DNA of 26,833 nucleotides. Origin: a virus. Shown one piece after another: positions 584 through 23,577 of this stretch. Where the stretch lies: positions 1 to 26,833 of the IMG/VR virus record IMGVR_UViG_3300037961_000715; one strand, written 5' to 3'. The notes under the pieces are model-generated. The model was not told where the DNA came from. It did no database searches and worked only from the letters and a program-made list of their open reading frames with translations. Each line of letters starts with the position of its first letter. Positions within the stretch are counted from its first letter, which is position 1. A program made the translations under genes and the position numbers.

Positions 584-2094
584 TAGTAACCTCTATAAGT
601 ACCACCTTTTGTTGTCGGTCTTTCTTTAGCGTTCTTAAACTTTATTTGATATAAAAACGGGCTGCGTGTGTTTACGTTTTTCTTAAATACAAACGACGTG
701 TTTGTTATAACAATTGGTGTAACGGTTTGCCCTTGTGAAGATAATAAGTACACATTCGGCGATAAATGCAATGCTTCGAGTATGTCAACTTCATCTTCAT
801 TAAATAGATCGGTATGCGCTGTAAATTCTTGCCGTGCGTTTACTTTAGCTATTCGCATACCCCCTTGGTCGCCCCGATAGTTGAAGTCTTGATTAGCATC
901 AGCCGTATCCCAATTGCCTGGTACTTGATCAAATGTCTTTCGCTTAATTTGATTAGTAGATTTTTCGCTTACTAAATTAAAGCTTTGATAATCCCAAGCC
1001 CCAAGAGAATTTTGCCAAGTTAAAGTTATAGGGTTATATCCATCAACACCATATCTACAATTGGCGTCTTTAACTGTAAATTGATAACAACAAGACGCCA
1101 TTGATGCAGTCGTTGTGTTAGAAGGTACAGTCGACGAGTCCTTCATAAAAAAAACTTCATAATATGCAACAGTATTTGGTGACGCGTTAAATTGTGTTGC
1201 GATCGCTGCAACAACAGATTGTGTAGCTAAATTCTTTGGCCCAACACCTATGTATTGTTGTCTTTCAAAGTCGTTAGATACTGACCCTGGAGCAGTACCG
1301 CCTGACGTTGCAGCAGTAATAAAACCTGATGACGTCAACGTGTTGCTTGAATTGTATGTTCCTATCCACGCCGAAACAGCCGTTCCACTTGTTGGAGCTG
1401 ACCCGTCCATTAACAGACTTAATGTTCGTACATCTTTTAAGGTTACTTCTTGATGAACGACTGAAACATTTGAAGCTGTTGTGCTTACAAAGTTTGAGTC
1501 TTTGAATCTGTCGCTTAATACTTGTGAGTTTTGTGAATGTGGCGTGAAGTTGTCTATCCAATCTTCGTCGTGTAAAAAGTCTGGAATACCTGCATCCCAA
1601 GTTTCAGACAATGTTTTTGAGCCACGACGTAACCCAGCCGTCATAATGTAGTCAATATATTCGCCGTCAATTTTGTTAACAGTATCAACAACAGGTGCGC
1701 CAGTTGCAGTTGTAGAATACTCTTGTTTAAAGCGCATTTCTATCTTACGATAATTTTCGCCGTTACTAATACTCCAAGGGTATGCAGGGTTGTTTACACC
1801 AACTAGGTGAATTGACTTGTCATAGATTTGGTTAGTAGTCACATTTCTATCACCTTTAGTAATAGACATAAAATCTTGTATAATTTGTTCTACTCTAAAA
1901 ACTCCAGCCCCTTCAGAGTTTGGAAATACTTTTACAGTTGCTGTTAAAGTGCCACCTACATACCATTCAGCTATATAACGAAATTTATAGTACGAGCCGC
2001 CTGAATATTCAGTTGATGTGATAACATACATCTGTTGTTCAAATACGCCGTGTACGTCAGTAGTATCAGGGCGTTGTTGTACCGTCATACTCAT
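583..2094 (-). CDS. Tail structural protein (503 aa), probably tail tip
   Basis: A 503-residue protein with no signal peptide or membrane segment. It is rich in Thr, Ser, Asn and aromatic residues, as usual for beta-rich virion proteins. The start ATG overlaps the stop of the upstream neck gene as ATGA, and its stop overlaps the next gene's start as TAATG, so three structural genes are translationally linked. It lies directly before the 1064-residue tail protein. By size and position it could be a distal-tail or tail-tip component, or a receptor-binding part. A short C-terminal basic segment (residues about 475-500, FKKNVNTRSPFLYQIKFKN) follows a hydrophobic strand. I do not recognise a specific family; the structural role is inferred from context. 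Confidence 0.65.
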   Translation of the reverse strand: MSMTVQQRPDTTDVHGVFEQQMYVITSTEYSGGSYYKFRYIAEWYVGGTLTATVKVFPNSEGAGVFRVEQIIQDFMSITKGDRNVTTNQIYDKSIHLVGVNNPAYPWSISNGENYRKIEMRFKQEYSTTATGAPVVDTVNKIDGEYIDYIMTAGLRRGSKTLSETWDAGIPDFLHDEDWIDNFTPHSQNSQVLSDRFKDSNFVSTTASNVSVVHQEVTLKDVRTLSLLMDGSAPTSGTAVSAWIGTYNSSNTLTSSGFITAATSGGTAPGSVSNDFERQQYIGVGPKNLATQSVVAAIATQFNASPNTVAYYEVFFMKDSSTVPSNTTTASMASCCYQFTVKDANCRYGVDGYNPITLTWQNSLGAWDYQSFNLVSEKSTNQIKRKTFDQVPGNWDTADANQDFNYRGDQGGMRIAKVNARQEFTAHTDLFNEDEVDILEALHLSPNVYLLSSQGQTVTPIVITNTSFVFKKNVNTRSPFLYQIKFKNAKERPTTKGGTYRGY

Positions 2095-2681
2095 TTTACT
2101 TCAAGATTTGGGTTTTTTTGTAATGATTGTTTTATTGCGTCAGCCATATCTTCACCAACAGCAACGGCTAAAATATTTAGTGCTTTAATTCTTAAACGCT
2201 TCCAAGTGCCACTTATGAACAAAGACGGTTTCAGTCCACGATGCCAAATTGCTCTTGTGATCGCAAACACAATTGACTTGCGTGGCACAAATCTACCTTG
2301 GGCATCTCTTGTTCCTTGTATGTTCTTTTGTGTAGTCCATCTGTCTATTGCGCCCCTTAGACCTGGTTTGCCACGTCCACTTCCAAACTTATAGGGTGAA
2401 TCACTTTGTTTTGAAAAGATGTTCTTTGACGCACCTTGAACACCTTTGTCGACGTAATCCCAATAGTCAACTTGTGGCGTAATGTTTACATACATCGCGT
2501 GTTGATTAGCACCGACAAACAGCTTCATTGAATTGTAAAGCGCGCCAGTATTCATACGACCTTGCATCTTTAAACTTGTGCGTGCGTTTTTGCGCCAGCG
2601 TTTACCAATAAACTCTAACGCTTTTTTTGTAGCTTTTGCAGGATAGCTTACACCACCGACTGTGAATTGTAACTTAGCCAT
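2091..2681 (-). CDS. HK97 gp10-like neck / tail completion protein
   Basis: A 196-residue basic protein. The pattern of a Lys/Arg-rich N-terminal helix (RWRKNARTSLK), a YWDYVDKGVQG segment (residues about 74-84), an SPYKFGSG loop and a C-terminal IARAIWHRGLKPSLFISGTW-like region matches the general layout of HK97-gp10-type head-tail joining proteins, where an F/Y-V-x-x-G-V core is typical. It would sit at the neck between connector and tail tube. The start overlaps the stop of the 153-residue gene (TAATG) and its stop overlaps the 503-residue tail gene (ATGA). The family call is by eye; the placement next to a tail-terminator-like gene supports it. Confidence 0.65.
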   Translation of the reverse strand: MAKLQFTVGGVSYPAKATKKALEFIGKRWRKNARTSLKMQGRMNTGALYNSMKLFVGANQHAMYVNITPQVDYWDYVDKGVQGASKNIFSKQSDSPYKFGSGRGKPGLRGAIDRWTTQKNIQGTRDAQGRFVPRKSIVFAITRAIWHRGLKPSLFISGTWKRLRIKALNILAVAVGEDMADAIKQSLQKNPNLEVK

Positions 2682-3142
2682 TAACTAAAGGGAGCTATAC
2701 AAAGGTTATTCTTATTCGATACCTCAATTGTCAAAGATCCTGACCAGCCAGTTAGTTCGTTGTCAAATCTTGCTGTAAACGGTGTGCAAGTAACAGGTAG
2801 TTCAGCTTTATAATCGTCATCAACTGTTGTGTTAGTTGTAGCTAACGATTGTATAAATTGATTTAATACATCGTGCAACATTTGAAGTGTATCTGAATAG
2901 ACTTGATTTCTGTCGCTTAAATCTGGTTGTATCATATCAGCAACCAACAATTCTAGATCGTAACTTATAACGCCATTATCTATGTTTGCACCTAGTATTT
3001 CGCAATACAAAAACGGGTAGTCTGTTTGTCCTAACTTTTCAATATCAACTTGGTCTAAAGGGCCAGCGTTAAAGCTTTGCAGTATCAAATGATTGTCTGT
3101 AATCGTTTGTAGTAGGTTTGTTATTTGCTTGTAAGATTTCAT
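2681..3142 (-). CDS. Putative tail terminator-like structural protein
   Basis: A 153-residue protein with the outline FNAGPLDQVDIE, YPFLYCEILGA, a Tyr/Asp-rich strand ISYDLELLVADM, then DRNQVYSDTLQMLHDVLNQF and a C-terminal GWSGSLTIEV. I recall proteins of this outline from Bacteroidota phage tail regions, where size and position suggest a tail terminator or neck role. The ATG overlaps the stop of the predicted frameshifted tail chaperone as ATGA, so it should be translated right after it. It is followed by the gp10-like gene. The function is inferred from context and general resemblance, not from a catalytic motif. Confidence 0.5.
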   Translation of the reverse strand: MKSYKQITNLLQTITDNHLILQSFNAGPLDQVDIEKLGQTDYPFLYCEILGANIDNGVISYDLELLVADMIQPDLSDRNQVYSDTLQMLHDVLNQFIQSLATTNTTVDDDYKAELPVTCTPFTARFDNELTGWSGSLTIEVSNKNNLCIAPFS

Positions 3143-3869
3143 CTGTATTGTTCAGCGTCAGGTGATTTGCCTTGACGATTTAAGTCTTGTTCATAAGCTA
3201 AATATGTAAAAGCCGATTCTATTTCAATTTGTGTTGCATCTTCTATTTTTAAAGGGTCGCCTCCTGCTAAATTGTATATTATAGAATACCAACCCCACTT
3301 TTCAGCTATTAAGTTTGTTTTAGCTCCGCCTTTGAATAATTGACCAAACCGTTCGTTAAGGTCTCGCCGATAGACAAAAAAAAATTCGTTGCACCAAGCA
3401 CAACGTCCATCTTTAAGTCATCCCAATAATTAGGCAACACGACTGCGTCGTAATCTTCTATTGTATAAAAGTCGCCCCCTTCTTGTACGATAGGTCTATA
3501 CAATATACTTATTATGCCGTTTAGGTTTTCAAAGTACCCACCATTGCAGTAAGTTTCTAAGTCAGCAAATTCACCAACGGTTAGCTTAGATAAGTTAGGG
3601 TGAAAGCCATAACGCTTGCCTTTGTATTCAATCTTTTTTTGTAGCTCCTGGTTGTTCTGATCGGCGTCAGTTATCTTATGAATTATAGTACCTATTTTAT
3701 TTAGTTCATCAATAGTTAGTTTTGACACTAAGTCTTTGTCTATGTCGCATAAAATAGTAATCGCATCTGACATCCATTGTGTATCAGATTGCTCTAAGTC
3801 TATATTTGTCAATTCACGATATTGCTTGACTGTAACATCAGCCAATGAATCAGGTACGATTAATTCCAT
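3139..3869 (-). CDS. Predicted -1 frameshift product of the tail assembly chaperone (GT-like)
   Basis: If ribosomes slip -1 on the U run at 3384-3378, translation leaves the 186-residue frame after residue 164. It continues for 79 codons (FVYRRDLNERFGQLFKGG... ending DAEQYR) to a TGA at 3141-3139. The product would be about 243 residues. The extension has no ATG of its own, has no stop codon, and ends in an ATGA overlap with the next gene, exactly as an ordinary gene boundary here does. It contains a conserved-looking core, EKWGWYSIIYNLAGGDPLKI. Without a frameshift, about 165 bases between two tightly packed genes would be non-coding. Known parallel: lambda gpGT and many siphophages. The slippage itself is inferred. 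Confidence 0.7.
3309..3869 (-). CDS. Tail assembly chaperone-like protein, zero-frame product (G-like)
   Basis: A 186-residue protein starting MELIVPDSLADV. The ATG at 3869 overlaps the terminase stop (TAATG); an upstream in-frame start at 3920 would lie inside terminase and is disfavoured. Residues 84-128 contain GKRYGFHPNLSKLTVGEF and ISILYRPI, an outline I associate with small phage tail assembly proteins. Near the C-terminus, residues 162-165 (N-F-F-L) are encoded by a run of nine U, and a -1 shift there opens a long second frame (next entry). The pair resembles the gpG/gpGT arrangement of tail chaperones, which bind the tape measure protein during tail assembly. Unlike in lambda, it is not adjacent to the tape measure gene but lies right after terminase. 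Confidence 0.65.
   Translation of the reverse strand: MELIVPDSLADVTVKQYRELTNIDLEQSDTQWMSDAITILCDIDKDLVSKLTIDELNKIGTIIHKITDADQNNQELQKKIEYKGKRYGFHPNLSKLTVGEFADLETYCNGGYFENLNGIISILYRPIVQEGGDFYTIEDYDAVVLPNYWDDLKMDVVLGATNFFLSIGETLTNGLVNYSKAELKQT
3378..3384 (-). promoter_or_regulatory. Slippery heptamer U UUU UUU for -1 frameshifting
   Basis: The mRNA reads GAA followed by nine U and then GUC. In the zero frame this is AAU UUU UUU UUG UCU. The heptamer U UUU UUU fits the X XXY YYZ rule, so both tRNAs can re-pair after a -1 shift. The next -1 codons are UUU GUC UAU. I did not identify a clear downstream pseudoknot by eye. Confidence 0.65.
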
Positions 3870-5023
3870 TATGAGATAAAGTATTTGCCTGAATAAGGTG
3901 TACCGATGCGATTTATACAAACGTATCTAACGGCATCAACAATGTGGTTGTTGTGATCTACTGGTTTAGATAGTTGTACTCCGTCTTTGTTTGTTTCCCA
4001 TCGGTAGTTTCTAAATTCTTTTTGTGCGTTTAACGATTCTTTTAGTATATATAGTTTATGTCGTTTCATTATGTCTATGCCTAGACGAATACTGTCAGGC
4101 CCTTTTTTTGACGGCTTTACGTTGTGTCCTAGCCGATGTAGTTCTTCAATTGATTTAGGTTCTGCACTATCACAAATGATTGGCGTTCTGTTTAGTTCTA
4201 GTTTGTCTAGCTCTAAACTTATATCGCGATTTGTTAAACCTGTCTTGTACAAGTGTTCTTTAATATACAAAGAATAGTCCTCACGCCAAACAGAAACTAA
4301 CGCTGTCGGGTCATTTGTAAAACCCCAATCCATACCGTATGCGACAAGCTTTGCGCGTTCTGGTATTTGGTCTGCAACTTGCCATTGTGGAAATACGGCT
4401 GCTGTGTTAATGCCACGCTCACCTAGTCCGTAAATACGCCAGTAGTTTTCGTCTGTTTCTTTAAAGCGTTCTATTTCGTCAATAACGCTTTGTTCAAGAA
4501 ATGGGTTGTCAAGGTATGTGGTTTGAAAGAAGTCAACGTCATCACGATTTAAAACGTACTCATATATCCAATGATATTGGTCAGATGGGTTATAGTCAAT
4601 TATTGTTTTGTCTGTCGTTCTTAATATAAGTTGTCTCCAATCTTCAAGCGACAGCTCATTAGCTTCGTTTATATACAACATTGTGCGTTTACGACCTCGC
4701 AACTTTTGTGGTTGGTCTGCGCTTATAAACTCAACAAGGTTGCCAAACAATGTGTATGTCGCTTGTGACTTGTTGTGATTTTCTTCGTAGTAGTTTTCAC
4801 CTTCAGTCAGTATGTCAAAAAAGTCTCGCATTACTGACGATCGCAAAGCCGGAAACGTCTTTCTAACTATGGTTATAACAATACCAGCACCTTTGTTTTT
4901 GTAGCACAATTCGATTAACGCTTGACAAATAGAATAGGTCTTGCCCGAACGTGTGCCACCTTGATGTACTTGAATCTTTGCCTTAGACTTTTTAACGTGA
5001 TAGTATGTCGATGGTTGCTTCAC
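3869..5023 (-). CDS. terL: Terminase large subunit
   Basis: The 384-residue ATPase/nuclease motor that packages DNA into proheads. Visible motifs: Walker A GGTRSGKT (residues 22-29), Walker B LYINEA (116-121, catalytic Glu120), and RNase H-like nuclease residues Asp232 (GMDWGFTNDP), Asp285 (ICDSAEP) and the C-terminal NHIVDAVRYV (His360, Asp363). This is the PBSX XtmB/Terminase_3 type and the length is normal for it. The start is GTG, overlapping the small-terminase stop as GTGA; the frame fits the family N-terminus just ahead of Walker A. Its stop overlaps the tail chaperone start. Confidence 0.95.
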   Translation of the reverse strand: MKQPSTYYHVKKSKAKIQVHQGGTRSGKTYSICQALIELCYKNKGAGIVITIVRKTFPALRSSVMRDFFDILTEGENYYEENHNKSQATYTLFGNLVEFISADQPQKLRGRKRTMLYINEANELSLEDWRQLILRTTDKTIIDYNPSDQYHWIYEYVLNRDDVDFFQTTYLDNPFLEQSVIDEIERFKETDENYWRIYGLGERGINTAAVFPQWQVADQIPERAKLVAYGMDWGFTNDPTALVSVWREDYSLYIKEHLYKTGLTNRDISLELDKLELNRTPIICDSAEPKSIEELHRLGHNVKPSKKGPDSIRLGIDIMKRHKLYILKESLNAQKEFRNYRWETNKDGVQLSKPVDHNNHIVDAVRYVCINRIGTPYSGKYFIS

Positions 5024-14993: not shown

Positions 14994-15559
14994 ATGTTGC
15001 ATTTACCAATTGCAGTTAAAAACGCTTGATACTTTAAGTCAGGATATACGTCATCTACATTTAACCCTTGTGTGTAGTTGTTTGTTGTAGGACATAAATC
15101 CGATCCAGTATTCGACGTGTATTCTGGATAGCTAGAAGAATTGTCGCACAAGTAATCGATTAAACGTTGTCTATGGAAGTTGCCCATATCGTTTGCTTGA
15201 TCGATTAGTGGCCTTAAATCGTCGTATGTTGCAGCAGAACTTTGTTCACTATTCATAATAACAACGGCGTTGTTTACAAAGCGAACTCTTAAATAAGGTA
15301 TCAATTGCGAAAAGGCATATTGCACGGTTGCAGGTATAACATACTGATTTAGGAGTGTTTCGTACACACCAGATACAGAACCTGTGTCAATATCGCTGCA
15401 AAGCTTGTCATATAAGTCAGTTCCTAAAACAGGTAAGATCCAGCGTTGTTGTGCCATATAAACGTAAGGACGGATAAGATCGTCGTCAACTGACCCTCCT
15501 ATTGCTGTGTCTCGTTTCAGTCTGTTTGCTGATACAAATAGTGCTTGTGATTGTGCCAT
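14987..15559 (-). CDS. Head-tail connector-like protein (190 aa)
   Basis: The pattern resembles head completion/adaptor proteins: VDDDLIRPYVYMAQQRWILP, VLGTDLYDKL, GVYETLLNQYVIPATVQYAF, then LRVRFVNNAVVI and NFHRQRLIDYLCDN ending SYPEY. It is predicted mostly helical. The start overlaps the portal stop as TAATG, so it is made together with the portal, to which it would attach on the outer side of the vertex. The C-terminal 45 residues are polar with CNIC at the end. Confidence 0.65.
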   Translation of the reverse strand: MAQSQALFVSANRLKRDTAIGGSVDDDLIRPYVYMAQQRWILPVLGTDLYDKLCSDIDTGSVSGVYETLLNQYVIPATVQYAFSQLIPYLRVRFVNNAVVIMNSEQSSAATYDDLRPLIDQANDMGNFHRQRLIDYLCDNSSSYPEYTSNTGSDLCPTTNNYTQGLNVDDVYPDLKYQAFLTAIGKCNIC

Positions 15560-18000
15560 TAGTTTCTAGGTGTTTTAATTTTAGCTGCAATTTGTGGATC
15601 TATAAATCCCCTGTTTTCCATATCCCTTGGTCGCTTTGCAACTCTATTATCGTTTTTTTTCAATAGACTAGCTTGTTCCTTTTGTATAAGACGTCGTGCT
15701 TCATTTACGCTAATTCGTTTGTTGTCTTTCTTTAAGTACGTCCTACGTTCCCAAAAGTGCTGACAAGACCCACCACCTTTATAAAACCAAATGTTATAAA
15801 AGTCAGAGCCAGCAGGCCCCCAGCCAGGGTTAGTTGCTCGGTCTGATGCTAATTCAATTTGTTCTTTTGTCCATACTTTGTTGCCTGCTGCAACCATAAG
15901 CTTGCAAAAGTCTCTTGACGGGTTTCCATTAATACCTGTTTTCTTAGGCATATAAGCGTAACGTACTCTAATTAATTCGTTGTCTTGTTCAGATACTCCA
16001 CGACTGCCTCGTTCTTGTGAGCTGCCTGGTATAACCCTTGGCTTTGCAAAATTCCACATCTTGTTAAGATGTTCTTCGTGATCGTAATTTACTTTGCTTG
16101 CATCTACTAAACTAAATTCTTTAAGTAATGTTGATTCATCTTCAGCTTGCTCAATCAAACTTTCAGCAGCAGATAAGCGCACACAGTCGCTCATTTCTTC
16201 TTTGCTAAGGTCTAGTTGCTTTAGTCTTGACTTAGCCCATCTAAGGCCAGCTTTCCCACCCCAAGCGTCATACATAAGCTTCCCACATCCGTCGTTGTAA
16301 GACTTACTACTTTCTAAATCTTTAGCGTGGCGTGTCAAGTAGTTAGCCATACGTTGCACGGTTTCAATACTTATTGGTTCTCCGTTAGCTAATTGGTTCG
16401 CACGTTGCTTACCAACGGCTGTGCCACAAGTACCCCATCCGTTCTTATCTACAAAGTCTAAAACTTTCTTAGCATTGTTTTTTACTGATTGTGGATAGTC
16501 AGTAATTGATTCGTCAAAGACGTTTCTTTTTTTTTTAGTTTTTTTACTTCTAAATTTTTCTATTTCAACAGTTGCGTCCTTACCTTCAGTAAATAGTGCT
16601 TTAGCAACAGCAGGGTCAAATTGTAGCATTTGCACTAAGAAAACAATAGCTTGCTCTGGTGTTAGTAATCCTTCTCCAACTTTTACAATAATATCAAGTG
16701 CCGATGAAATTTGCGCACCATTATATGAAGCTTCTTTGTCGATAGTTATATCTGGCATCGTATCTTCAACTTCTTTGACATCGTCTACTTGTACTTCATC
16801 GACTTGTTCGTCAACAATAACTTCATCTTCAGTTGTAACGCCTTCTTTTTGTTGCTCACCTTCGTCAAGCGTTTCTATAACATCTAAGTCTAAGAAGTCA
16901 GCAGGTTTAGCTGTAATAAAAAATAAATCTAGCTCAATGTCGTTTATGCCAAACAACATTCCAAACGTCTTTAAAATTATGTCTTGGAATGGTGCAATTA
17001 CAGTATTGTTAAACAAAGAATATGAATCTCTTAATTCGTCTGCGTTATTTCCAAAGCCACCACCTTCTGATCGTATTCCAAACATTAAAGGGCTAACAAC
17101 ACGATGCGCTGTAAGTATCTTCTCGCTAACTAATTTAGACAAATATTCATACATACCATCAGCACCGTTTTGTTGTATGGGTGTAAACTCTGGAGCTGTT
17201 TCGTCGCCGTCGTTAAAAGTGATCAATATACGTCCTGCGTTATCGTCGCCAGTAAACTTTTGTATAACCTTTTGTTCTATAACACGGCGTTCTTCTTGTG
17301 TTGGTACGCCATTCTTAAACGACAAAAGCATCGAAGGGAAAAACCCTCGACGTATGTTAGAAAGATGGAAGTCGCTGATGCGCTGGTCTAGTTCACAATA
17401 ATTAGTACCACCAGCATAGTCAGGAACAGAGTAGTAGTGAAGCGAAGGCGTGTATCTTTTAATCTGTAAACAAGTAGATGCGACAGTTCTGTCTTCTAAA
17501 GAAAACGCTTTTATTGTTTTTTCTTTTAGTCTTTTTTCCTTCCAGTCTGACTTGTAGTAGTATTCGTTTACGTTTCCTTCGTCGTCAGCTATGCCACTTC
17601 GCATTGTGTGAACAGGTAGATGTTTTATGCAACCTATTCTAGTCCTTGATGCGTTCCAAATAACATTGATATAAGCCATACCATACAACTTTAAATCAAA
17701 TGCTACACGTTGCAAAAGACCGTCAGAACTCTTGCGAAGTAAATCTTGAAGGCGTAGCCATTGTTCACGTTTAGAATCGCTGTCGTCTCTGTCAGTAGCG
17801 TCTAAGCCACCACCGTATATCATATCGGCAACACCGTTTATGATCGCACCGTTAGTTGAACTTGCTAAAAATAAATCTCGCAAGTAATCACCGTAAAGGT
17901 CGTCGTAGCCATACGATACATAATTTTGACCTTGCTTTTCTTGAAATACTGGTATCTCTTGGTCAGTATAATTTATAACGCTAAAATCGTGTTTGTTCAT
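15559..18000 (-). CDS. Portal protein with long C-terminal extension
   Basis: An 813-residue protein. Residues 1 to about 390 look like a siphophage portal: LYGDYLRDLFLASSTNGAII, IYGGGLDATD, LYGMAYINVIW, HLPVHTMRSG, then EKILTAHRVVSPLMFGI with the FGNNADELRD stem region. An acidic, probably flexible part (EDEVIVDEQVDEVQVDDVKE) follows. After a Lys-rich hinge (KKTKKKRN, 486-493) comes a second module: DYPQSVKNNAKKVLDF, GTAVGKQRANQLANGEPIS, YNDGCGKLMYDAWGGKAG. A third part has NPSRDFCKLM, NPGWGPAGSDFYNIWFYKGG and KRPRDMENRG. I recall such modules fused to portals or proteases in Bacteroidota phages, function unknown to me. Typical portals are 400-550 residues. Confidence 0.85.
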   Translation of the reverse strand: MNKHDFSVINYTDQEIPVFQEKQGQNYVSYGYDDLYGDYLRDLFLASSTNGAIINGVADMIYGGGLDATDRDDSDSKREQWLRLQDLLRKSSDGLLQRVAFDLKLYGMAYINVIWNASRTRIGCIKHLPVHTMRSGIADDEGNVNEYYYKSDWKEKRLKEKTIKAFSLEDRTVASTCLQIKRYTPSLHYYSVPDYAGGTNYCELDQRISDFHLSNIRRGFFPSMLLSFKNGVPTQEERRVIEQKVIQKFTGDDNAGRILITFNDGDETAPEFTPIQQNGADGMYEYLSKLVSEKILTAHRVVSPLMFGIRSEGGGFGNNADELRDSYSLFNNTVIAPFQDIILKTFGMLFGINDIELDLFFITAKPADFLDLDVIETLDEGEQQKEGVTTEDEVIVDEQVDEVQVDDVKEVEDTMPDITIDKEASYNGAQISSALDIIVKVGEGLLTPEQAIVFLVQMLQFDPAVAKALFTEGKDATVEIEKFRSKKTKKKRNVFDESITDYPQSVKNNAKKVLDFVDKNGWGTCGTAVGKQRANQLANGEPISIETVQRMANYLTRHAKDLESSKSYNDGCGKLMYDAWGGKAGLRWAKSRLKQLDLSKEEMSDCVRLSAAESLIEQAEDESTLLKEFSLVDASKVNYDHEEHLNKMWNFAKPRVIPGSSQERGSRGVSEQDNELIRVRYAYMPKKTGINGNPSRDFCKLMVAAGNKVWTKEQIELASDRATNPGWGPAGSDFYNIWFYKGGGSCQHFWERRTYLKKDNKRISVNEARRLIQKEQASLLKKNDNRVAKRPRDMENRGFIDPQIAAKIKTPRN
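16527..16536 (-). promoter_or_regulatory. A10 slippery run at the portal/extension boundary
   Basis: The mRNA has ACU followed by ten A and GA. Zero frame: AAA AAA AAA AGA, codons 489-492. It contains A AAA AAA, a classic -1 slip heptamer. A -1 shift reads AAG AAA CGU CUU UGA and stops after residue 495; a +1 shift also stops within about 15 codons. Either polymerase or ribosome slippage would give a portal of normal size without the extension. Confidence 0.45.
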
Positions 18001-20158: not shown

Positions 20159-20842
20159 TTATTTGTTAGAGATTATGTTATGTAGCGCACGTTCTACACT
20201 ATTTAATTGTTTTAAATCTTTTGGCTTGTGCGTAGCCGAAAAGTTGTTTGGCGAGTGTGTTACACCCTTAGATGCAGGCGCATCTTCTAAAGCGTTTAGT
20301 CTTTCGCTTATACTTGCAAAAGCTTCTTCTAAGAATTTAGACATATCTTCTCTGTCATCGTCTTTTTCTTCTTCAGCAACAACTTCAACAACTTCTTCGT
20401 CGTTAGAGTAAATAGTTGCTACAAGAGTAGCGATCGCGTCGATAGTGTCTTGCCCTAAGTCTGGAAATCCTTGGTCTAGTGCATCACGAACTTTGTCGTA
20501 ATTCATATCAACTTTTTTCTTGTCGTAGCCCATCTCGTCCTCTTCATCTTCTTTGTGGTCAGGAGTATGTTCAAGTTCTACTTCAACTTCAACTTCGTCA
20601 TCTCCTAAAGATGCTAAACGAGAATCTTCGTTTACAACAATTTTCGTTCCGTCCTCAAGTGTGTATGTTCCAGCGTCAAGAAGTGATGCTTCTCCACTAT
20701 CGTCGAGAATACGAACTTCAACGCCTACGTCCATAGACTCGGCTTCGGTAACGACAACACGCCCGTCGTCAAGACGAGCTTCGGCATACAACTTCGTCTG
20801 AGGAAGTCCTAGTGCCTTTCTGATTTTTTCAACTGTGTTCAT
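20159..20842 (-). CDS. Capsid scaffolding-like protein, acidic (227 aa)
   Basis: Residues 15-75 include KLYAEARLDDGRVVVTEAES and DAGTYTLEDGTKIVVNEDSR, a small beta domain seen in scaffold proteins of many phages. An extremely acidic linker follows (EDEEDEMGYDKKK, EEVVEVVAEEEKDDDRED), then a helical C-terminus (FLEEAFASISERLNALED) ending in a basic tip (KPKDLKQLNSVERALHN) that could bind capsid protein. Acidic, helical and placed between protease and major capsid, it fits a scaffold that is later degraded. Confidence 0.75.
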   Translation of the reverse strand: MNTVEKIRKALGLPQTKLYAEARLDDGRVVVTEAESMDVGVEVRILDDSGEASLLDAGTYTLEDGTKIVVNEDSRLASLGDDEVEVEVELEHTPDHKEDEEDEMGYDKKKVDMNYDKVRDALDQGFPDLGQDTIDAIATLVATIYSNDEEVVEVVAEEEKDDDREDMSKFLEEAFASISERLNALEDAPASKGVTHSPNNFSATHKPKDLKQLNSVERALHNIISNK

Positions 20843-20900: not shown

Positions 20901-21758
20901 TCAACCATATTTTGAACGTATCATACCACACACCTTTTCTGCAACTTCTTTTGAACCATAACGATTTGTTTGATCACGGATGCACTCATCCCAAGGGTAT
21001 GACTCCAAACTTTGCTTTGCACTATAAAGCGTTTCACCGTTAACTGAAACAGAATTAAATCCAGTTCGGTTAAAAAAGATTTCGCCCCAAAGTTGTGCGT
21101 CTTGTGCCTTCTTAAATAAGGGTTGTCCGTTTAACTCACCAGACGGTTTTACCTCTTCTAAAATTATCGCTTTTAGTTCTTCAATAATTTGTTCGTCCTC
21201 TGGGCAATTTTTGCACAACTTGCCGCGTTTCATTTCAACAAGTCTGTCAGTAAAGTACCCTTCTATTGAGTAACCTCGCACTTCTCGTTTTTTAACCTTT
21301 TCCCAAATTTCTTTGTTGTTTACTTTAGATGCAATCATCCAAGTGCCAACAGGCAAGTCAAAACCGTACAACGCGCTCTTATCTTTTTTAGAATCTTCAA
21401 CTAGCCAAGACTCAACAACTGTTACCCCGTCGATCTTTGACGCGTGTTCAAGTGTGCTTTCGTTTGTTCTAGCTTCACGCATAAACAGTTCCATCGCTTG
21501 ACGTACTGTGTCTTTAGAAAAATAAACGTCGTATTCTTCGTCGTTTTCGTCAAGTCGCATAATCAACTTATCTGGTATCAACGCAGGCCCTATAAGCATT
21601 TGTTTTTCTTCGTCCATAGCAAACGACATCTTCTTGTCAGCGTTGCTAGATAAATAAACAAAGTCAGTTTCAATAGCAGGGAATCGAACTAAACTAACAG
21701 CTTCGATGCCGCTGATTGGTTCATCTTCATCAATTAGAAGTTCTACTTTCTTTCTCAT
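20901..21758 (-). CDS. XkdF-like prohead serine protease
   Basis: A 285-residue protein from the ATG at 21758; a longer reading from TTG 21806 overlaps the tape measure stop and is disfavoured. MRKKVELLIDEDEPISGIEA and VSLVRFPAIETDFVYL begin it. The protease core includes GPALIPDKLIMRLDENDEEY, MREARTNESTLEHASKIDGV (candidate catalytic His), VVESWLVEDSKKDKSA and VKKREVRGYSIEGYF (candidate catalytic Ser). The C-terminal module SLESYPWDECIRDQTNRYGS ends with CGMIRSKYG, a small tail seen in several phage head proteins. It would mature the prohead. Confidence 0.75.
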   Translation of the reverse strand: MRKKVELLIDEDEPISGIEAVSLVRFPAIETDFVYLSSNADKKMSFAMDEEKQMLIGPALIPDKLIMRLDENDEEYDVYFSKDTVRQAMELFMREARTNESTLEHASKIDGVTVVESWLVEDSKKDKSALYGFDLPVGTWMIASKVNNKEIWEKVKKREVRGYSIEGYFTDRLVEMKRGKLCKNCPEDEQIIEELKAIILEEVKPSGELNGQPLFKKAQDAQLWGEIFFNRTGFNSVSVNGETLYSAKQSLESYPWDECIRDQTNRYGSKEVAEKVCGMIRSKYG

Positions 21759-21792
21759 ATCTTTAAAAATATATTCTGTTTTATTGTTTATT

Positions 21793-23577
21793 TTAACCAC
21801 CACCAAGTGAAGCTTGATTTTCTAGTGTTGCTGCGAGTGCGTCTGCGTCGGCTATGTCTTGTTGAATGACGTAAGCTTGTACGGCTGTTGATGTCATTGC
21901 TTGATTAAATGACTGCAACAAGTCTGGTGTAAGCGCAAGTTGAGGGCCACCACCACCACCACCACCAGCACCAGCACCACCACCACCAGATAAGTCAGGC
22001 ATATCTGTATCAAGTCCTTGAACTGCTGCGCCAGCTTGATTCATTATACCTTTTATAGACGCAAATCCTGACAATACAATTCCAACAAGTGTAGCAGTAA
22101 ATCCAGGTGCAGTTGCAATAGCTGCTGGGCCTGTTCCTGCTGCTGATGCTTGTGCATTTTTAACAGCTTCTGATATTGCAATACCTTTATTAACTAAGAC
22201 TTGTGCAACAGCTAACTTTCTTTGCCCCTCTTCAGTTTTAGCCATAGCATTTAAAGCTTGGAATCCAGCTTGCACTAACCCCATTCGTGCTTGTTTAATA
22301 GCTGCGGCTGTTGCTTGTTCAAGGGCGATTTGTTTGGCGGCATCTTCTTTGGAAATCGTTGACTTCGTTGTTAGGAAACCAAGAAGGTTGTTAACGTCCT
22401 CTTCCCTTTCCTTGTCTCTAATTGCTTGACGTTGGTCGATAAACTTCTGTTCTATTGCTAACCTTTCAGCATCTAGTTTTCTTTTTAAATCAAGTGTAGC
22501 AGTTTCACCTTCCATCATAGCTTCTAATTGAGCTACTTGTAATCTTGCAGCTTTTTTGTCGTGTGCTTCAAGCTCGATTTCCTCTTGAGTCATTAAATAA
22601 GTACGCAACTCTTCGCTTCTTTTTTCCTCTTCTTGCCTCATAACACGTTGCGTTTCTAAGATCGCTTCTTGCTTTTCCTTCTCAGCTGCCTTTACTGCAT
22701 CGGCTTCGGCTTTGGCTTTTCGAGCAGCTTCGGCACGAATTGTATTCAGTCTGTTGTTAAGTGTCGTCTGCATTTCAGCAGATTCCGTCCTTATGTTTAT
22801 AAGATTAACTTCTAATTGCGCAAGGTTATCTAAATCATCTTCGCTTGTGTCACTTAACGACGCACGTTGTTTTGCAATGTCAAATTCTTCTTGAGCTATT
22901 CTTTGACGTTCAGCCATCAATTCTTGCTCAATAGCCATTGTTTTTTCAGCCGCTTCAATACGTTCTTCGATGCCACGAGTCGTGTCTTCAGCGATCATAT
23001 TGTATTCTTTTATTTGCGCTCGTCCTTCGGCAAATTGTACAGATAAATCACGTTGTGAAGTCCTTAACGCTTGGGTGCGTCTTTCTAATTCCATAACTTG
23101 GCGCACGGCTTCGCCAATAGAACCACTCAGCTTGTCCATACCTTCACGATAATTGTCAACAGCCTGCGTTACACCACCAGTAAATAGACCTACAATAAAC
23201 CCTCCAGCAGCTTGTAAAAATCCAACTACACGCTCAACAACAGCACCTAAACCAGCCATAGCAACCTTTAGCATTTTAGCACCCTTGTTTGTTTTAGTAA
23301 ACGCTGTTACTAATCCAACAACAGCAACGACAAGTGCGCCAACACCCGTAGCAATAATAGCAGTTCTTGTAAGCTTTAGTCCTTTAATAAAAGCTTTTGT
23401 ACCTTGTGCAGCTTTTCTAAAACCTGTAACAGCACCGCCTGTCATACTATCTAAAGCAGTAGCTGCACCCTCTATTCCTGTGCCTAGACTTTTAGTTGCA
23501 TTGTCAACTTTGTTTATTTGTTTTGTTGCTGTGTCAGCACCCTTAATAACTACACCAACTTCAATTTTTTCTGCCAT
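21793..23577 (-). CDS. Tape measure protein
   Basis: 594 residues. The start (MAEKIEVGVVIKGADTATKQ, INKVDNATKSLGTGIEGAA) is typical of tape measure proteins. Hydrophobic segments at about 70-92 (TAIIATGVGALVVAVVGLVT) and 105-135 (GLGAVVERVVGFLQAAGGFI) are followed by a long coiled coil (about 150-400, rich in Glu, Gln, Arg, Ala) and a second hydrophobic region with AIATAPGFTATLVGIVLSGF. A glycine run near residue 540 precedes the C-terminus. At about 0.15 nm per residue the tail would be near 90 nm, a medium siphovirus tail. It overlaps the 62-residue gene by 17 bases. Confidence 0.85.
   Translation of the reverse strand: MAEKIEVGVVIKGADTATKQINKVDNATKSLGTGIEGAATALDSMTGGAVTGFRKAAQGTKAFIKGLKLTRTAIIATGVGALVVAVVGLVTAFTKTNKGAKMLKVAMAGLGAVVERVVGFLQAAGGFIVGLFTGGVTQAVDNYREGMDKLSGSIGEAVRQVMELERRTQALRTSQRDLSVQFAEGRAQIKEYNMIAEDTTRGIEERIEAAEKTMAIEQELMAERQRIAQEEFDIAKQRASLSDTSEDDLDNLAQLEVNLINIRTESAEMQTTLNNRLNTIRAEAARKAKAEADAVKAAEKEKQEAILETQRVMRQEEEKRSEELRTYLMTQEEIELEAHDKKAARLQVAQLEAMMEGETATLDLKRKLDAERLAIEQKFIDQRQAIRDKEREEDVNNLLGFLTTKSTISKEDAAKQIALEQATAAAIKQARMGLVQAGFQALNAMAKTEEGQRKLAVAQVLVNKGIAISEAVKNAQASAAGTGPAAIATAPGFTATLVGIVLSGFASIKGIMNQAGAAVQGLDTDMPDLSGGGGAGAGGGGGGGPQLALTPDLLQSFNQAMTSTAVQAYVIQQDIADADALAATLENQASLGGG

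Follow-up and report, generated by a model that had tools for sequence, protein, structure and literature searches.

The window, a 26,833-nt stretch of DNA from an IMG/VR virus record (IMGVR_UViG_3300037961_000715), carries on its minus strand an 813-aa open reading frame (15559-18000; 92.2 kDa) that we take to be a portal gene from a profile match over its body. The phrog_33693 portal profile covers residues 9-363 (E = 2.6e-94); PF04860 scored 32.5 bits (E = 6.7e-8), under its cut-off of 39.1. All features of this gene described below lie on the same strand. A portal body kept in all homologues (residues 1-398; 16807-18000) is followed by a helical linker defined by homologue comparison (EASYNGAQISSALDIIVKVGEG..., residues about 423-484, of which 423-475 are conserved; 16549-16734), a Lys-rich hinge, a phrog_2859-like module 1 recognized by profile match (...NGWGTCGTAVGKQRANQLANG..., residues about 501-596; 16213-16500) and module 2 (RDFC...NPGWG...YKGGGSCQHFWERR, residues about 612-813; 15562-16167). 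Overall, the family is modular. Between body and hinge some members carry a linker (ASYNGAQISSALDII...) and others none, module 1 after the hinge is likewise optional, and module 2 is present in every fused homologue. The linker is optional among close relatives, yet common to portals at 38-46% body identity, and module 1 is missing from L004, L015, L027, L034 and other loci. Structure prediction for the full-length portal was too poor for use (pLDDT 47).

Module 2 was modelled separately with a pLDDT of 80.6. It matched no Pfam or PDB sequence, and comparison of the model with PDB folds gave nothing significant (best E = 0.13, low TM). Its structural matches among viral proteins were predicted viral portals and XkdF-type proteases, and on that basis it appears to be a mobile domain found on head-interior proteins. 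Module 1 is also found on other phage proteins, with annotations such as prohead protease, and both modules are apparently mobile procapsid domains that have no Pfam name. Elsewhere in the window, two neighbouring ORFs (20159-20842 and 20901-21806) both match parts of phrog_24921 (the XkdF protease and a C-terminal part) and possibly correspond to one gene in relatives that is two here.

Between the helical linker and the two C-terminal modules, the plus strand shows T10 (16527-16536), which is A10 in the coding sense and the longest homopolymer of the window. The run comprises AAA codons 489-491 and the first A of AGA492, in phase 0 (ACT AAA AAA AAA AGA AAC GTC TTT GAC, with T488 K489 K490 K491 R492 N493). 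After the run, the -1 frame reads AAG AAA CGT CTT TGA and ends at 16514-16516, giving a predicted product of 491 + 4 = 495 aa (56.1 kDa); the related locus L002 has TAA at the equivalent place. The +1 frame ends at a TAA (16482-16484) 14 codons past the run. An earlier sequence-only reading had proposed this arrangement, with A10 at a Lys hinge between the portal body and two C-terminal modules, a -1 UGA four codons on that leaves 495 residues and an early +1 stop, and each of these points was borne out; the interval that it gave, 16514-16536, covers the run together with the -1 reading up to its stop. An A7 run just 5' of A10 (16539-16545; AAA AAA ACT) is not conserved, and L002 reads AAA AAG ACT.

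Close relatives were sought with either the complete protein or its portal body as query, which yielded tens of contigs, and distant ones with the linker, which reached much lower body identity. A run of A9-A11 was found at the same joint in 65 related portals, linker-less ones included, with A10 in 46; grouped by downstream sequence, these hinges form 23 clusters. Across 161 unique linker-bearing hinges, the longest run was A10 in 41, A11 in 9, A9 in 3 and A8 in 5, with at most seven As in the others, and run-less hinges peak at A3-A4. Relatives with at least 76% body identity often have A9-A11 at the hinge across architectures and in different codon phases (for example, SKKTKKKR with A10 in phase 0, FRNAKKKKK with A11, EFSSKKKD with A9, and EFSKKKL and KLSKKKQL, both with A10 in phase 2). 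In the distant relatives, the peptides around the run are unrelated to one another (ASLKKKRHH, ETQMSKKKSGD, SEEIVKKKTRN, SAHLKKKVATE, LFEKKKGKEN and KSKKKTETD). Because the surrounding peptides are unrelated and all three phases are used (28 sequences in phase 0, 4 in phase 1 and 33 in phase 2), what is conserved is the nucleotide run. Across all the loci retrieved (some 1.9 Mb, with redundancy), coding-sense runs of at least ten As occurred only at the portal hinge, which argues that A10 at this site is more than chance.

The run is not universal. At least nine As were present in only 53 of the 161 linker-bearing hinges, and about two thirds of linker-bearing relatives have no run and encode the long form only. 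Some equally close relatives (L031, L037, L039, L044, L090 and L094) and a clade at ~55% also do without it and have the long form alone, and close pairs differ in this respect (L031, none, versus L027; L039, none, versus L040). On a tree of portal bodies, the run was gained or lost at least 14 times, gains that are not fully independent. The A-run conservation that the sequence-only reading had proposed as a check holds for the 65 portals and fails for most linker-bearing relatives, and homologues of the kind that it had named as counter-evidence, with mixed Lys codons and no run, exist in part, L139 having a mixed-codon LKKKD. Since certain close relatives lack the run, a short portal can be dispensed with.

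Codon usage at the hinge is skewed. In nearly all clusters the Lys-Lys-Lys stretch is written with AAA only, L139 being the exception, as against 16% expected for three AAA in a row when 55% of Lys codons in these loci are AAA (binomial P = 1.8e-17 for 23/24, or about 1e-16 without L016, one of the 23 clusters, which encodes QKK rather than KKK). A -1 stop follows within three codons of the run in 17 of 23 clusters. The same is true downstream of 24.5% of other Lys codons (P = 8e-7) and of 30.3% of Lys-Lys pairs (P = 2e-5). Because neither clusters nor run gains are wholly independent of one another, all of these P values are indicative. In the +1 frame, stops within three codons are at the background level (5/23 clusters), and across the family the nearness of non-zero-frame stops is significant for -1 only. 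Resampling of synonymous codons downstream of the run reached 17 clusters in 3 of 2,000 trials, and the result was robust to how clusters were drawn (-1 stop share of 59-73% under alternative clusterings). In some clusters (L004, L015 and L016) the -1 stop lies 9-16 codons away.

One relative, L156 (IMGVR_UViG_3300017740_000052, 1014-1320), resembles a natural split. Its hinge has A9, its 438-aa portal ends KKKTAH* and module 2 is intact in the -1 frame, whereas portal and module 2 are fused in its siblings with A10. If the split is real, both products would still be available but with default and shifted forms swapped, a situation already proposed for certain dnaX genes (PMC5009743). The shorter run, one A fewer than in the siblings, may be a homopolymer or base-calling error; a search for further copies of this virus found none, and the split is seen in one contig only.

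We consider it probable, from these comparisons, that A10 is a selected slippage site that truncates the portal, such that one gene would yield both a short and a long protein. The run, the stops, their recurrence and the L156 split are observed; slippage in the cell, and its rate, is what we infer. Either RNA polymerase, the more likely agent, or the ribosome would slip on A10, with a -1 shift equivalent to one extra A in the message. Shifted messages or ribosomes would end within a few codons, producing the 495-aa portal without C-terminal modules, and unshifted ones would give the full 813-aa portal. The two forms could join the same dodecamer because the whole portal body is common to both. 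Modules 1 and 2 would then be carried by long subunits only, presumably on the capsid-interior side, and a mixture of forms would lower the module dose on the portal, which may be its purpose. Internal initiation after the run was considered as well and rejected, an in-frame ATG, GTG or TTG being found within 8 codons in only 3/23 clusters.

The closer of two dnaX parallels is that of Thermus thermophilus, in which transcriptional slippage at A9 yields the short gamma protein (PMC1088944, PMC5009743). Like that gene, the portal gene has a sense-strand run of at least nine As within one long ORF and near stops in the other frames (4 codons in -1 and 14 in +1 in the window) that would leave a short form without C-terminal domains (PMC1088944, PMC5009743). 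Unlike dnaX, it encodes a phage portal rather than a DNA polymerase subunit, its stop excess is restricted to one shifted frame and slippage is predicted from sequence alone. The sequence-only reading had likened the site to dnaX in general, and short and long products remain the best reading, with run, joint and -1 stop recurring across lineages; the Escherichia coli type of dnaX recoding, by -1 ribosomal frameshifting, fits poorly. It has in common with the portal a truncating -1 shift in a Lys-rich A run, but the window has no zero-frame A AAA AAG heptamer, upstream Shine-Dalgarno-like site or consistent downstream stem-loop.

Two structural proteins with a common N-terminal part and a set ratio are also made from one phage gene by frameshifting in gpG/gpGT, the T3/T7 coat, Lactobacillus A2 and Listeria PSA (PMC5009743). 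In those cases the shift adds an extension; here the default would be long and the shift would truncate, an order reversed only in L156. Our literature searches found no portal gene for which slippage or frameshifting is reported, and portals are not mentioned in the available part of the review by Atkins et al.

As to the agent, RNA polymerase is modestly favoured, because the run is independent of codon phase, its length peaks at A10, downstream structure is inconsistent and A AAA AAG is found in 6/23 clusters; the ribosome is a serious if somewhat less probable candidate. A purely translational explanation, by -1 ribosomal frameshifting or sliding on consecutive AAA codons, would give the same products as polymerase slippage, and we regard it as possible though not the favoured account. 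E. coli ribosomes do slide along A11 stretches that encode Lys, terminating at out-of-frame stops (PMC4363877), the excess of stops is confined to the -1 frame and the L164 group carries GAA AAA AAG, an in-frame A AAA AAG heptamer. However, the run is found in every codon phase, it ends in a zero-frame A AAA AAG in just those six clusters (the window reads AAA AAA AAA AGA) and the lengths peak at A10 although a heptamer would be enough for ribosomes. Ribosomal stimulators were sought at the hinges of the 23 clusters and the window and were not found, with a Shine-Dalgarno-like site upstream in 1/23 clusters and downstream folding at a mean z of -0.66 versus a background of -0.39 (window, -1.18).

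Less credible is an incidental run, whereby a Lys-rich hinge in A+T-rich phages would generate A10 and out-of-frame stops would only limit the cost of unavoidable slippage (the ambush idea). Lys residues are encoded at every hinge, many relatives manage without a run, A+T-rich genes commonly have out-of-frame stops, and slippery runs may be tolerated under the guard of hidden stops rather than used. We nonetheless consider this unlikely: AAG makes up 45% of Lys codons in these loci and is almost never used in the hinge stretch, the cost would be easily avoided, as shown by the lack of coding runs of at least ten As elsewhere in the loci, and the A10 peak is left unexplained. It is more doubtful still that the run is a DNA-level seam for exchange of portal modules, maintained through recombination and not through selection for slippage. 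The linker and module 1, which flank it, are indeed gained and lost, but linker-bearing relatives without a run also swap modules, and a seam would explain neither the excess of stops in -1 alone, the peak at A10 among portals of fixed architecture nor the frame reversal in L156. Finally, homopolymers are prone to error and L156 is one A off its siblings, but an artefact of sequencing or assembly is scarcely credible for an A10 found in dozens of contigs from different samples with the long frame open in 64/65 hinges.

A portal is usually regarded as a ring of twelve identical chains. Selected slippage, if true, would break this identity by supplying body-only and extended subunits, and would be a new phage means of setting the dose of capsid-interior domains. 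More tentatively, and with rather less confidence than in the slippage site itself, we suggest that slippage at the conserved A10 sets the fraction of subunits with C-terminal modules, so that mixed rings may exist in widespread uncultivated phages. The exact prediction is of 56- and 92-kDa bands with identical N-termini. Such a site would also be a case of truncating slippage detected by comparison alone, which Baranov et al. described as hard to predict in this way, since it creates no additional coding sequence (PMC1088944).

A separate set of relatives (L164, L172, L173, L193, L195 and their own relatives) has a conserved zero-frame A AAA AAG (GAA AAA AAG) at the same joint in place of A10, which is perhaps a ribosomal version. 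No cultured phage carrying the run was found in 50,697 records. The closest cultured relative, the 560-aa portal of Nonlabens phage P12024S/L, likewise joins the body to module 2 within a single frame but is without linker, Lys hinge and A run. In bacterial genomes, the portal body gave no match and the linker gave one, a Vicingaceae contig (L363); 45 other genomes from the same order gave none. The contig encodes a portal of this family (1834-4023) in which an A9 run lies far 3' of the linker and the -1 frame reads KKKRL*. This counts for selected slippage, since run and stop recur in yet another context, and the contig provides a host clue.
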